IMG/VR virus record: IMGVR_UViG_3300025508_000107
Location: 1 to 29,661 of that record
Direction: 5' to 3' (one strand)
Source of the DNA: a virus
Length of the DNA: 29,661 bases
Part shown: one piece after another, positions 1 through 5,993 of the stretch
How the letters are laid out: each line of letters begins with the position of its first letter
How positions within the stretch are numbered: position 1 is the first letter of the stretch
Notes under the pieces: model-generated
Databases searched by the model: none
What the model saw: the letters and a program-made list of their open reading frames with translations, nothing else
What the model was told of the DNA's origin: nothing
Program-made: the position numbers and the translations under genes

Positions 1-3000
1 TTGAATTGTACACTTTGCGCTTCTAAAGTCTGCAATTGGGAATGTGTGAATAGCGACTTGAGTAATGGCTGCGGTAGAGGTTACAGTAGTATCAACGCCA
101 TACTCTTCTACTTGGAAGGAAGCTTTTGGTACAGTAACTCCTATACCAAGATTACCATTTGCTAAAAGCACCATCTTTTTACCATTAGTGCCAAAATTCC
201 AGTAGAAGCCATTTAATGCGTTAAACCACATATTTTCGCCACCACCAGATCCATCTAATCCTATACCAGCATCATTATATGTTCCACCATTATCATAGAA
301 TTTAAGTCTGTATGCTGCCTCAACGCTAGGATCTCCAAATCCATTAGTTATATAAGTAGTGCCAGAAACTTGTAATTTATGCGTTGGAGAATCTGTTCCG
401 ATACCAACATTGCCTACATCTTTAATAACCATTCTTGGAGTATTAACACCAGCGCCTGAACCTTTCGTGAAGAATCTTAGAGTGCCGCCTTCTAATAGAT
501 TGTTCGGGGCATAAGGAGCTTGTACAACATCAATACCAGCAACTTGTTTATGGGCATCACCTTGGGCTCCAGTTCTATTCCAGTATATTCCACCAATTTG
601 GTCGTTGTCTGTAGTTGTTTGAGATTCGAGCATAATGAAAGAACCATTTGCTCCTCCATTTACAGTTAAAAATTTACCATTTGAATCTGGCTTAAAGAAA
701 CTACCTGTATTAATATGGTTCGTAGGGTTGGTTGTGCCAATGCCAACATTACCTTGATAGTCAACTCGCATTCTTTCTGCTAAAGAAGTACCTGCCGCTC
801 CTGCAGTAGTATCTGCATTATTTGTATAAACTACAAACGCACCAGAGCCTTCCTTTTCCTGCGTGTCCGCATTGTTATTCTGACCAACCTCGGCCCCGAT
901 CCTTACTTGAGGAGTTTCGTTACTATTGTCATCTTCAAAGCTAAAATCAATAAAAGATTTCTGCTGTGCGAGGTCAGCGCCAGTATCATGGTGAAGCGTT
1001 AATAAAGTAGCATCTCCAGTATTTACCACCGTAGAAATAACAGGGCCTACATTAGCGGTGCCTGATAGATGGAGGTCTTTAAAGCGGTTGTTAGTATTTC
1101 CTAAGTCAAGAAGATTATCACTAATTGCATTGGTTGAGGTGTTCCAAGGTGTAATCTGGTTTGCATCACCCACAAAACGTAAACCAGTATCTCCACTTCC
1201 AATGGTTAATCTATCGCTAGTAGTACCAATACTACCTACGGTTCCGCCGTCTTTGCGGAGCTGTACGATGTCACCGTCGGTGGATAACCTGTTAAAAATA
1301 GCCGCTGTATTTGCCTGGCGCGTACTCCAGAGATATCCGTCAGATAAACCAGAGCCAGTAGCTGATGCACTGTTACCTGCATAGAATGTAGAACCTACAA
1401 ATAATGAACCAGCGCTGTCTATGCGTGCTGCTTCTGAGCCGCCATTATTAAAAGTAATTACATCAGAACCCGGAAAATTAATTGAAGTATTAGTGTCATT
1501 CTGACCTGCAATGAATGATGCATAAGCACCTGCTGATAGGTAAAGGTCTTTGAAGCGTTCGGTGTTTCGCCCTAAACTGCAAACGCCGTCTGTTTGAACG
1601 CCACTGCCGTCTGTTGGGTCTATCCGATTAGTTGCGCCTGTTAGTCCTGCTCCGTTGGTTCGTGGGTCAAGAATAATAGTGGAAACTAAATTTGAGCGAG
1701 ACTCAATACTACCTACGACGTTGCCGTTAAATCTAAACTCTGCAATAGTTCCATTGCTGTCCATACGATTAATGAAAAGACCTGCGTTACCTGACCTAGC
1801 CATTTGTATATGGTCGGGAGCAACCATTACACCCTCGGCACCTCCAGCGCCGTTAGCAGCTAAACTAGTATCAGTAGTACCCACCAACAGGTTGCCAGAG
1901 GAGTCGAGCCTCATACTTTCTATGTCGTTAGTCTTAAAAACTAAAGGATACGCGCCAGTTCCTGTTAATCGGTGTTCTGAACTACCCGAATGAGTCTGCA
2001 AAATAAGGTTTGAAGATAAACCAGTGTCTTCTAGTTTAAGTGTAGGAAATGTTGCTCTTGAAATGTGTAGCGCATCACTAGGCGAATCAGTACCAATACC
2101 AACACGGCTATTGGCCATATCAACATGAATCGTATCATCAACCTGAACAGATCTATTAGAAGAATTACCTACAAATATCTTACCTTCATCAAGATTAGGA
2201 GTAGCATTAGCTCTACCCGCACCGGTAATGTCAATAGAACCAGTTGATGGATGAACCTTGGTAATCTTTGCTATCTGTTGAACTAGAGATGCAGAACCGC
2301 TTGGAGGTACATCAGTCATTTCCCCTGGAATAGTTGATACATATAATGGAGAACCTTCAGTCCAACCATTTATATTGGTTGTCAAGTTACTCATAATACC
2401 AAAACTGTAAATATCAACTGGCACATTAATAGATACAGTTTCAGCGGCAACACCAAATGCCGGCATTAGAGAAGCATCATTAGCATCGGCTTTAGAAACA
2501 ACTGTTGTATTACCACTAATACCGGTGATAGTAACAACATCTCCTTTAGATAATGCTTCTCCGGCTTGTGCTTTAAATAAGACAGAACCTCTTAAATCTC
2601 CAATAAATTCAGTAGCTTCTACATCCAATCCATCAGCAAGTACAATACCATCGCTTGTACTTTCAAATATTTCTGTTCCACCAATTTGAAACTGAAGATT
2701 ACCTGTACCAGTATCATTTATGATAGATTTTAAACCATCATGATAAATTTCAAGATCATCATCATCGCCTAATAGAATCTTTTGATTATCAGCAAGATCT
2801 AGGTCTGCTGTAACTGTAACATTTGATTTATATGCAGCAATTTGAATTAAGTCACCAGCACTAACAGCAACACTAAATACAACACTCGAACCATTTGTTG
2901 CAGTAAAATCAGTTCCGTAATCCAATAAAATACCATTTAGATATACTTGTACTTGAGGGAGGTTAGTTCCTGATCCTGTGTTATAATCTAATGTGTTACT

Positions 3001-3258
3001 ATTTTGATCAGCGCCAGAAAAGGTTGTTTGATTTGCTACTTGGGCTGTATATTCAAACATTTCAAATGATGAATATATTGATCCTGGATCTCCACTCCCA
3101 ATTTCTATAACAGTGTCAACACCGCCAATAGATTTCTTCATATACGCTTTACCGTCGGCGGTATTAAGCGCTAATTCACCAAGATTTAGATTTGCTGGAA
3201 GGGGTATCGCACCTGATACTGCGGAGCGTCTTATACGAATGTCTGTTTGTCTGGCCAA
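1..3258 (-). CDS. Large tail fibre, TTG start, 3' end beyond window
   Basis: The frame is open from TTG at 3258 to the left edge: exactly 1086 codons with no stop seen. TTG is chosen because AGGAG lies 9 bases upstream and the reading ARQTDIRIRRSAVSGAIPLP then NLGELALNTADGKAYMKK is a usual fibre N-terminus. An Ig-like piece follows (VQVYLNGILLDYGTDFTATN), then DDDLEIYHDG near residue 166, SPLYVSTIPGEMTD and GAGRANATPNLDEGKIFVGN near 345. VGIGT-type motifs occur near residues 386, 835, 950 and 1033, and RFKDLYLSAGA/RFKDLHLSGTA lie between. The window ends at RSAKCTIQ, which looks like the start of another fibre domain. The central block is GC-richer than the rest. It is probably a host-range fibre; whether it ends in an S74 domain cannot be seen. 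Confidence 0.85.
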   Translation of the reverse strand, partial: MARQTDIRIRRSAVSGAIPLPANLNLGELALNTADGKAYMKKSIGGVDTVIEIGSGDPGSIYSSFEMFEYTAQVANQTTFSGADQNSNTLDYNTGSGTNLPQVQVYLNGILLDYGTDFTATNGSSVVFSVAVSAGDLIQIAAYKSNVTVTADLDLADNQKILLGDDDDLEIYHDGLKSIINDTGTGNLQFQIGGTEIFESTSDGIVLADGLDVEATEFIGDLRGSVLFKAQAGEALSKGDVVTITGISGNTTVVSKADANDASLMPAFGVAAETVSINVPVDIYSFGIMSNLTTNINGWTEGSPLYVSTIPGEMTDVPPSGSASLVQQIAKITKVHPSTGSIDITGAGRANATPNLDEGKIFVGNSSNRSVQVDDTIHVDMANSRVGIGTDSPSDALHISRATFPTLKLEDTGLSSNLILQTHSGSSEHRLTGTGAYPLVFKTNDIESMRLDSSGNLLVGTTDTSLAANGAGGAEGVMVAPDHIQMARSGNAGLFINRMDSNGTIAEFRFNGNVVGSIESRSNLVSTIILDPRTNGAGLTGATNRIDPTDGSGVQTDGVCSLGRNTERFKDLYLSAGAYASFIAGQNDTNTSINFPGSDVITFNNGGSEAARIDSAGSLFVGSTFYAGNSASATGSGLSDGYLWSTRQANTAAIFNRLSTDGDIVQLRKDGGTVGSIGTTSDRLTIGSGDTGLRFVGDANQITPWNTSTNAISDNLLDLGNTNNRFKDLHLSGTANVGPVISTVVNTGDATLLTLHHDTGADLAQQKSFIDFSFEDDNSNETPQVRIGAEVGQNNNADTQEKEGSGAFVVYTNNADTTAGAAGTSLAERMRVDYQGNVGIGTTNPTNHINTGSFFKPDSNGKFLTVNGGANGSFIMLESQTTTDNDQIGGIYWNRTGAQGDAHKQVAGIDVVQAPYAPNNLLEGGTLRFFTKGSGAGVNTPRMVIKDVGNVGIGTDSPTHKLQVSGTTYITNGFGDPSVEAAYRLKFYDNGGTYNDAGIGLDGSGGGENMWFNALNGFYWNFGTNGKKMVLLANGNLGIGVTVPKASFQVEEYGVDTTVTSTAAITQVAIHTFPIADFRSAKCTIQ

Positions 3259-3280
3259 TTTTGGCTTCTCCTGTTATCAA

Positions 3281-3307
3281 TCTCTATATAGAGAATTTTA
3301 TAAAATT
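3281..3307. repeat. Two adjoining perfect 14-bp palindromes
   Basis: TCTCTATATAGAGA (3281..3294) and AATTTTATAAAATT (3294..3307) share one base and are both perfect. They lie in the loop of the long stem, in the untranslated leader. They could fold as small hairpins in RNA or bind a dimeric protein in DNA. Confidence 0.75.
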
Positions 3308-3329
3308 AAAAAACTTGTATTTACAAGCT
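3302..3329 (-). terminator. Terminator-like hairpin after the 569-residue gene
   Basis: Read on the minus strand, AGCTTGT-AAAT-ACAAGTT forms a 7-bp stem (one G-U) and runs into TTTTTTAATTTT. It could end or weaken transcripts arriving from upstream. The late start near 3333 lies just before it, where it would instead be a 5' end hairpin. The stem is AT-rich and short. Confidence 0.5.
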
Positions 3330-3338
3330 ATATAGTTC

Positions 3339-3346
3339 TATTTATA
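3339..3346 (-). promoter_or_regulatory. T4-type late promoter match before the last fibre gene
   Basis: Exact TATAAATA on the minus strand at the inner edge of the upstream arm of an inverted repeat. The predicted start near 3333 lies downstream of that arm, so transcripts from here lack it. The leader to the TTG at 3258 is about 75 bases. Confidence 0.7.
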
Positions 3347-3368
3347 ACAGGAGAAACCTTAGATCAGA

Positions 3369-5078
3369 TTAGTATGTGCCACCATCAATAATAGCAGAAG
3401 CAATTGGTACACCAGATGCATTAAATTGCATAACATCACCAAGTGTTCCGGTAACAAAGGCAAGAGCAGTACCCGCAGTATTAGCAATAAATACTCCGTT
3501 TCCAGTAAAGCTAGATAAACCAGTACCGCCATGAGTAACTGCAAGGTCGGTGCCAAGTGTTAATGAGCCAGATACATCTAAATTGCCATTTAGATCTAAG
3601 TCTGCATTAACTTCAACTTCATTAGTATTTGAATCGAGTACTAACTTACCAGATGTTGTGGTAATTGTTTGATCATCAGCAATAGCAATTGTAATATTGC
3701 CAAGAGCTGCACCAGTACCATATACATCACCAAATTGAGCATCACCCCATGGTGTAGTAAAGTTTTCATCAGATGAGTTTGCTTCTGCTGAATCATCTGG
3801 CTTAAATACAAACCTTTGTGATTGTATATCAAAACCAAAGAAACCATCAACAACTGCAGTACCATTACCCCACTTAAAGTTAATACCACGATCAATACCA
3901 TCTGAAGTAACAACTGTTGTGTTATCAGCCAACATTAGAACTGGATCGTCTAGAGTAATAACGCTAGAGTTAACAGAAGTTGTTGTACCATTAACAGTTA
4001 GGTTACCACCAACAATAAGATTATTACCAATTTCTACATCATTGGTAAGTGCAACAGTAATTGTATCACCAGTAACAGAAGTTTCAATTTGATTTGTAGT
4101 ACCAAGTATAGAAAGAGTATCTGTTAGTAGTGAAACGCCATCATCAGTACCAGAATCTGCAGCAATATTAAGAACAGTAGCAATAGTGGTTGTACTTGCC
4201 GCTGTTAATCTACCTTGTTGGTCAACTGTAAACGCCGGTATTGTAGTTGCTGATCCATAAGATCCAGGAGTAACCGATGTATCATCAAGATCAATATTTA
4301 CGTTATTTGCAGTAACTTGAGTAGTAATACCAGTAAGACCGCTAAAGTCTAGAGTTTCTGATAATAAAGCAATTCCATCTGAGCCAGAATCACCTGTAAT
4401 ATTTAATGTTGTTGCTAATGCTGCTGTTCCAGCTGCTGTTAATCTACCCTGTTGGTCAACTGTAAACGTTGGTATCTGAGTTGTAGAACCATAAGATCCT
4501 GGGGTAACTATTGTATCATCAAGATCAATACTAAGACTATTACCAGATGCTGCTGTGGTAATACCAGTATCACCAGTAAAAGTAATTGTTTCGCTGTCTA
4601 GATCAATTGCGCCGGTTCCAGTATCGCCAGCAAAATCTAAGTCTTGAGCAGTTACAACACTGTCAATATAAGTCTTAGCAGCTAATGCTGTAAGTAGTTG
4701 AGAGTTAGAAGCACCAGCAAGAGTTGTAGATGTAGAAATACTTGTAACAACTTGACCAGTGCCACCCGATACTTCAAGAGCAAGAGATCCAATGTTTAAA
4801 TCTGTTACATGCTTATTAGCATCAACTATAAGAGCTGAGTTTGCTGTTGTAGTACCATGAACATGATCAAGTAGATCAGTAAAGTATTTACCACCAATAA
4901 TACCTATACCAGTAGCAACTCCACCGGCTTCATTTCCAGTACCAATGTATAATCTATCGCCATTATTTGCTTGTGTACCAGCTACATAAGAGTATGCTAA
5001 TTCGCCAGTTTTAATATTACTAGGAGCAGCAGTTGTTGCGCCCGTAGTTAAGATTTTAATTCTTGTTAAATTGGCCAC
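3369..5078 (-). CDS. Fibre-like structural protein with tandem 78-residue repeats
   Basis: A 569-residue beta-repeat protein, probably a tail fibre or fibre-tip component. It starts at GTG 5078 with AGGAGG 9 bases upstream. The N-terminus (MANLTRIKILTTGATTAAPS, then IKTGELAYSY and GDRLYIGTG) is an attachment-like module. The middle has about two and a half tandem repeats with SYGS...FTVDQQGRLTAA. Next is a GNLTVNGTTTSVNSS module followed by GINFKWGNGTAVVDGFFGFD, common in marine T4-like fibres. The end has DLDLNGNLDVSGSLTLGTDL, a VTHGGTGLSSFTGNGVF segment (typical of fibre ends) and the tail IIDGGTY. It lies between two fibre-related genes. The receptor role is inferred from motifs and context. 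Confidence 0.8.
   Translation of the reverse strand: MANLTRIKILTTGATTAAPSNIKTGELAYSYVAGTQANNGDRLYIGTGNEAGGVATGIGIIGGKYFTDLLDHVHGTTTANSALIVDANKHVTDLNIGSLALEVSGGTGQVVTSISTSTTLAGASNSQLLTALAAKTYIDSVVTAQDLDFAGDTGTGAIDLDSETITFTGDTGITTAASGNSLSIDLDDTIVTPGSYGSTTQIPTFTVDQQGRLTAAGTAALATTLNITGDSGSDGIALLSETLDFSGLTGITTQVTANNVNIDLDDTSVTPGSYGSATTIPAFTVDQQGRLTAASTTTIATVLNIAADSGTDDGVSLLTDTLSILGTTNQIETSVTGDTITVALTNDVEIGNNLIVGGNLTVNGTTTSVNSSVITLDDPVLMLADNTTVVTSDGIDRGINFKWGNGTAVVDGFFGFDIQSQRFVFKPDDSAEANSSDENFTTPWGDAQFGDVYGTGAALGNITIAIADDQTITTTSGKLVLDSNTNEVEVNADLDLNGNLDVSGSLTLGTDLAVTHGGTGLSSFTGNGVFIANTAGTALAFVTGTLGDVMQFNASGVPIASAIIDGGTY
4040..4630 (-). repeat. About 2.5 tandem 78-residue repeats in the 569-residue fibre protein
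   Basis: The period is 234 bases: the matching strings GCTGTTAATCTACC (plus strand) start at 4201 and 4435. The two full copies share DLDDTxVTPGSYGS and FTVDQQGRLTAA; the third is shortened to its first part (GTDDGVSLLTDTLS). DNA similarity of the two full copies is high around 4201..4295 and 4435..4530. Confidence 0.78.
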
Positions 5079-5681: not shown

Positions 5682-5993
5682 TTAGTTATTTATATCTTTT
5701 AAGTTTTCGATCTCAGATCTAAGTAATTTATTTTCTTCTTTAAGTTCTTTAATTGCTTCAATAAAGAGAGCAGATAGTTGGTTATAGTCTACAACCTTAT
5801 GAGTCTCGCCTTCTGTGTTTAAAGTTTCGGTATCTTTAACAGCTGAAGGTAATACATCTTCAACGTTTTGAGCAATTACACCAGCAGATTCTTTACCATC
5901 TTTAATCCATTCGAACGTAACACCATCCAATTGACATACTTTATCAAGCGCATTTTCTACTGTCTTGATATTTTCTTTTAATTTAATATCTGA
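5682..5993 (-). other. Peptidase S74 intramolecular chaperone domain of the giant fibre
   Basis: Residues 2494-2596 begin with SDIKLKENI, matching the S-D-x-(R/K)-L-K-x-x-I signature that holds the catalytic Ser-Lys pair of endosialidase-type chaperones. GVTFEWIKDGK, AGVIAQNVEDVLPSAV, VDYNQLSALFIEAIKELK and a coiled coil follow, all in the expected order. After trimer folding, cleavage just before Ser2494 would release about 103 residues. Confidence 0.88.

Follow-up and report, generated by a model that had tools for sequence, protein, structure and literature searches.

A probable RNA switch gating a tail-fibre gene by transcript start position in an uncultured T4-like marine phage

In the 29,661-nt stretch of viral DNA analysed here (hereafter, the window), translation of a tail-fibre gene is quite likely gated by a cis-acting RNA switch that responds to the position at which the mRNA starts. 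Transcripts entering from upstream would carry the strand 3358-3344, which can pair with 3277-3263 in a 15-bp helix that would bury the Shine-Dalgarno (SD) site, such that ribosomes could not load. RNA begun at the promoter element TATAAATA (predicted +1 near 3333) would lack the upstream strand and leave the SD free between two hairpins, H2 and H3 (Table 1). The use of this promoter, the translational repression and the purpose of the switch we infer from the sequence. Since related viruses keep the pairing, it probably represents a real switch of the kind known from phage T4.

Table 1. Features of the fibre-gene leader and its surroundings, in window coordinates.
Feature	Coordinates	Strand	Evidence and remarks
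Upstream fibre/baseplate-like ORF, 569 aa, GTG start	3369..5078	-	PHROG matches including baseplate wedge subunit; C-terminus kept in relatives
Upstream (anti-SD) arm GGTTTCTCCTGTTAT	3358..3344	-	Folding, duplex energy, covariation
T4-type late promoter element TATAAATA	3346..3339	-	Motif; equivalent position in some 40 related leaders
Predicted +1 of own-promoter RNA	near 3333	-	Inferred from TATAAATA position
Leader hairpin H1, AGCUUGU-AAAU-ACAAGUU	3312..3329	-	Folding, covariation; few nt from predicted own-promoter 5' end
Leader hairpin H2, UCUCU-AUAU-AGAGA, then UUGA	3281..3294	-	Folding, covariation; 8 nt before SD
Downstream arm ATAACAGGAGAAGCC, contains SD AGGAG at 3272..3268	3277..3263	-	Folding, duplex energy
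Hairpin H3, GCCA-AAAU-UGGC, UUG start inside	3254..3265	-	Folding; invariant, so covariation uninformative
Tail-fibre gene, TTG start 3258..3256, exits window, 1086 aa seen	1..3258	-	ORF list, PHROG; TTG-Ala start and N-terminus kept in relatives
Next upstream TATAAATA, likely read-through source; short leader without anti-SD arm	5687..5694	-	Motif scan

The upstream ORF, whose C-terminus reads ...IIDGGTY*, and the TTG-started fibre ORF are separated by a 110-nt spacer on the - strand, with the upstream stop codon (3371..3369) lying 10 nt before the anti-SD arm. Read on this strand, the two arms form 15 consecutive pairs, comprising 12 that are perfect at the DNA level (3355-3344 with 3277-3266), one G-U pair (3356-3265) and two outer G-C pairs; a helix masking the fibre AGGAG had been predicted at exactly this position. 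The predicted overlap of the promoter element with the inner end of the upstream arm was likewise recovered, and amounts to 3 nt. The arms lie 66 nt apart, and the loop between them is a separately conserved leader of two hairpins, H1 and H2, a point that the original prediction missed. The leader of the window recurs in a near-identical contig that comes from a different metagenome, indicating that it is not an assembly artefact. No intrinsic terminator (a G+C-rich stem followed by a T run) was called in 3259-3368, and H1, whose stem is A+T-rich, was rejected as a candidate terminator. Rfam 15 covariance models gave no match to the window at E <= 1.

Folding of the 110-nt spacer gave -34.7 kcal/mol (z = -6.8), a stability equalled by 0 of 200 shuffled sequences; RNA starting at 3333, which lacks the stem, folded at -9.5 kcal/mol (z = -0.8), similar to shuffled sequence. 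The duplex of the arm with the SD region reached -25.2 kcal/mol, and across 9,877 30-nt segments of the coding strand paired with the SD region, energies below -17.8 kcal/mol were obtained only where the segment overlapped the arm. The stem in the window is far beyond chance expectation. The predicted probability that AGGAG is unpaired is ~0 in RNAs entering from upstream, and in the own-promoter RNA the SD is predicted to be only ~25% unpaired.

Relatives of this locus were gathered by the fibre N-terminus, by the C-terminus of the upstream protein and by two DNA patterns, yielding dozens of uncultured phage contigs with the same junction. Because the DNA patterns required parts of the leader layout, some of the constancy around the start was built into the search; most loci recovered solely via the upstream protein show the same layout too. 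Some 40 leaders with TATAAATA at the equivalent place were chosen partly on that motif. The order of elements is constant among the relatives, with TATAAATA 64-91 nt before the start, followed by H1, H2, AGGAG and GCCAAMATTGGC around the TTG start, and with 6-11 nt between the end of H2 and AGGAG in nearly all related leaders. The few relatives that depart from this layout have no such promoter. Isolate phages gave no DNA match to window 2900-3700; judged by the baseplate protein (~39% identity), the nearest cultured kin are three marine T4-like phages, Methylophilales phage Melnitz and the Pelagibacter phages Mosig and HTVC008M, and no such fibre leader is present in those of their tail regions that were scanned.

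Within this layout, the anti-SD arm is an optional, clade-restricted addition, less widely conserved than the promoter and the two leader hairpins, which show strong covariation. Six of the 42 tree leaders with this promoter carry the arm (the window, L013, L009, L094, L131 and L241); these belong to two clades of fibre N-termini that lie well apart, and the starred branches of the tree force at least two gains or losses. The refuting pattern named in the original prediction, relatives in which one arm changes without the other, was partly observed: 36 of 42 orthologous leaders have no upstream arm and retain the SD. In many of the arm-less leaders the upstream stop codon abuts TATAAATA, leaving no space for an arm. 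As a separate observation, the SD of four arm-less leaders (L161, L097, L127 and L123) is still predicted to be paired in read-through RNA, perhaps with codons of the upstream ORF.

The energies of the arm-by-SD duplexes in the five arm-bearing leaders besides the window were -20.3 (L013), -17.6 (L241), -13.4 (L009), -12.7 (L094) and -9.1 (L131) kcal/mol, against -0.2 to -11.2 kcal/mol in the arm-less leaders, and five of the six arms were the top five among 86 promoter-gene pairs. The arm of L131 forms a weak duplex (shuffle p = 0.18), but its predicted full fold still switches. When 5' ends were stepped along the six arm-bearing leaders, the predicted probability of AGGAG being unpaired was ~0.00-0.02 when the start lay at least 20 nt upstream of TATAAATA, rising to 0.2-0.6 when it lay within or downstream of this element. 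Furthermore, opening the region from the SD to the start codon was predicted to cost 2.4 to 11.7 kcal/mol more in the read-through RNA, with the window showing the largest change at the promoter among the six. In all six arm-bearing leaders, the predicted point at which accessibility switches is the promoter.

Covariation of the stem was examined in a set of five arms that were registered by hand and connected through an artificial linker; hand registration was used because MAFFT misaligned the SD region of L009, which was omitted from the set. All 5/5 alignable arms keep pairs 3-10, those over the SD, intact; the remaining differences within these pairs are one-sided and pass through G·U. The compensatory changes that the original prediction anticipated from aligning the spacer were found outside the SD, at pair 11 (G-C to A-U) and pair 14 (A-U to G-C), supporting conservation at the RNA level. 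Sliding the register by 1-3 nt lowered every main covariation measure. Of 500 shuffles, 13-14 reached the observed covariation score or count of doubly changed cells, and 74 reached the count of doubly changed pairs; these statistics are modest because the arms are few (five alignable) and homologous rather than independent. The omitted L009 has lost AAG next to the SD, and its upstream arm has changed to match, to GGCTTCC, which pairs with one bulge. When the arms and SDs were re-paired in all 720 ways, joining every arm to its own SD gave the best total energy, with one tie. That arms cross-pair between relatives is not in itself proof of covariation, since AGGAG is common to all of them and only the flanking pairs 11 and 14 count.

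For marine T4-like cyanophages, a review gives NATAAATA/TATAAATA as the late promoter (PMC2984593). The window contains TATAAATA 6 times against 5.6 expected by chance, with all six occurrences on the coding strand; as this count is at chance level, support for the promoter here comes from its position. Homologues of the late sigma factor gp55 (45-50% identity) were detected in the larger contigs of five relatives, and none was found in the near-identical 37.6-kb contig, which, like the window, is a fragment. The PHROG matches of the window include baseplate wedge, hub/lysozyme and tail-fibre proteins, in addition to some ORFs without an assigned function, all on the - strand. Sigma-70-like sites occur in the window at chance frequency, with no early promoter signal above chance. 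Because the recognisable upstream genes are structural and co-directional, and because another TATAAATA lies 2.3 kb upstream of the fibre promoter, the read-through RNA is probably itself late. In this setting, the early/late timer originally envisaged, in which read-through RNA is silent and late RNA active, is not supported in that form, as it presumes a read-through RNA that is not late. With the upstream genes also structural, the switch most likely serves to tie fibre output to its own promoter, independently of the upstream late operon, thereby decoupling fibre dosage.

Several other explanations of the stem were weighed. Under translational coupling, the stem would block free initiation and ribosomes ending the upstream ORF would open it, such that the fibre is made in proportion to the upstream protein, in keeping with two adjacent, co-directional genes and an upstream stop only 10 nt before the arm. 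We consider this unlikely: a terminating ribosome covers ~15 nt beyond the stop and would reach only the outermost 2-4 of the 15 pairs, leaving the 12-bp inner stem intact, and the fibre start lies 110 nt past the upstream stop. Hairpins near 5' ends often protect mRNA, and both the position of H1 near the predicted own-promoter 5' end and the presence of a long helix at a gene boundary would suit a role in mRNA processing or stability, with the helix acting as an RNase III-type cleavage site or stabilising structure and having no direct part in initiation. Such a role is improbable, given that in every arm-bearing relative the helix is centred on the SD and its 5' arm abuts the promoter, neither of which a cleavage site needs. 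It is highly improbable that the locus is a DNA-level inverted repeat (a protein-binding or recombination site) with incidental RNA pairing, even though fibre genes recombine often and 12 bp of the repeat are perfect. The arms of relatives pair through G·U and, in L009, a bulge, breaking DNA symmetry yet keeping RNA pairing, which favours RNA pairing over a DNA repeat, and there is no divergent + strand gene whose SD would account for the repeat. Chance complementarity of a pyrimidine-rich spacer with a fixed SD, to which any CUCCU run would pair and which would suit the presence of arms in a minority of leaders, is very improbable, as the window pairing is the extreme of the 9,877 segments, five of six arms head the 86 promoter-gene pairs and pairs outside AGGAG co-vary.

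The promoter-gated switch, which we prefer over these explanations, has close parallels in T4. The SD of the T4 lysozyme gene e lies in a helix in long transcripts, and TATAAATA late promoters fall within the region of the 5' strand, such that late RNA lacks this strand; experiments showed a ~100-fold repression in long transcripts that is relieved in late ones (PMC3014915). In a T4 control, a TATAAATA scan over 23 promoter-gene pairs placed e near the top with an SD-opening drop of 10.7 kcal/mol, compared with 11.9 kcal/mol for the window fibre gene, in agreement with the original analogy to gene e. Several other high scorers of the promoter survey, among them T4 116454/116457, G003 27740 and G008 3775, were excluded from support, as they apparently represent divergent gene starts with mirrored SDs, for which complementarity follows trivially; at this spot in the window there is no divergent gene. 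The window differs from e in that the long T4 transcripts are early and the purpose there is to avoid premature lysis, whereas the window gene is a fibre within a structural cluster and its arms, 66 nt apart, surround two conserved hairpins.

Similar arrangements, in which late transcripts lose the sequestering strand or which follow the same hairpin logic, occur in T4 I-TevI, I-TevII, I-TevIII and segB and in mobE of phage Aeh1 (PMC2988022, PMC3014915), but these are mobile endonuclease genes, and the T4 intron ones lie inside early/middle units. According to reviews, the late T4 genes soc, 49, 25 and 26 also have RBS-sequestering RNA structure (PMC3014915, PMC2988022). Two of them, 25 and 26, are tail baseplate genes and reportedly sequestered, providing a precedent for structural genes (PMC3014915, PMC2988022), although none of the four is a tail-fibre gene. 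T4-type sequestered genes have been described as lying on long early/middle transcripts (PMC2988022). In the seg43 leader of Aeromonas phage 25, a stable hairpin lies immediately before an RBS that is itself free, as H2 does in the window, but there is no sequestering arm (PMC2988022). The literature searched, which covered few subscription journals, held no description of a switch of this type for a fibre gene. The mechanism is thus already known (T4 e, soc, 49, I-TevI and reportedly 25 and 26), and the gene and the phage group look new. If true, the T4 logic, in which a ribosome site stays hidden until the late promoter of that gene fires, would reach the fibres with which uncultured marine phages recognise their hosts, in a setting where the competing RNA is probably also late; this would point to control of dosage or assembly order and not of timing.

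The greater novelty of the locus may lie in the conserved leader hairpins. Over 40 leaders, 98-99% of cells in H1 and H2 are paired, and in the three-hairpin structure both sides have changed in 89 cells, compared with 24 in shuffles (0/500 shuffles). Among 65 distinct fibre starts from varied phages (loci L185-L264), 57 have a tetraloop hairpin of at least 4 pairs within 48 nt upstream, with an ANAU loop in 49 of the 65; only 30 of 90 control gene starts have a tetraloop hairpin, and their loops are scattered. The leader hairpins carry a U-A-N-A-U-A tip upstream of fibre ribosome sites. Tentatively, we propose a structured leader, so far undescribed, in the tail-fibre genes of many phages. 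It would consist of a U-A-N-A-U-A-tip hairpin before the ribosome site and, in this group, a second near the mRNA 5' end, and a phage or host factor might read it to set fibre dosage. Under this proposal, some marine T4-like phages would have added the promoter-gated anti-SD arm, making fibre translation dependent solely on the fibre gene's own promoter. Such hairpins could offer a handle for locating fibre genes and possible RNA-binding regulators.

Further observations concern the same elements. The GCCAAAATTGGC palindrome that holds the UUG start (window 3254..3265) is nearly invariant in relatives and could itself limit initiation. In five loci (L121, L129, L142, L160 and L172), the H2-SD-start element precedes a different fibre N-terminus (MANN..VKRTST) and follows a different upstream gene, with no TATAAATA at the usual distance, indicating that H2 travels without the promoter.

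Other candidate loci were also noted. A second gene, whose common N-terminus (FRIKNGLEVG) resembles that of a tail protein, lies near 72291 of G001, the contig of L009, and at 1758 of L152. Its late leader is 41-55 nt long, and the GGAG within it can occupy the loop of a hairpin of the CCGU..ACGG type; the upstream strand pairs too in G001, with a drop of 5.7 kcal/mol. At position 47816 of G003, the contig of L013, a gene beginning MSDLLNFDFGFTAVDENE... shows a predicted SD-opening drop of 10.6 kcal/mol from read-through to own-promoter RNA, and may represent a further switch.
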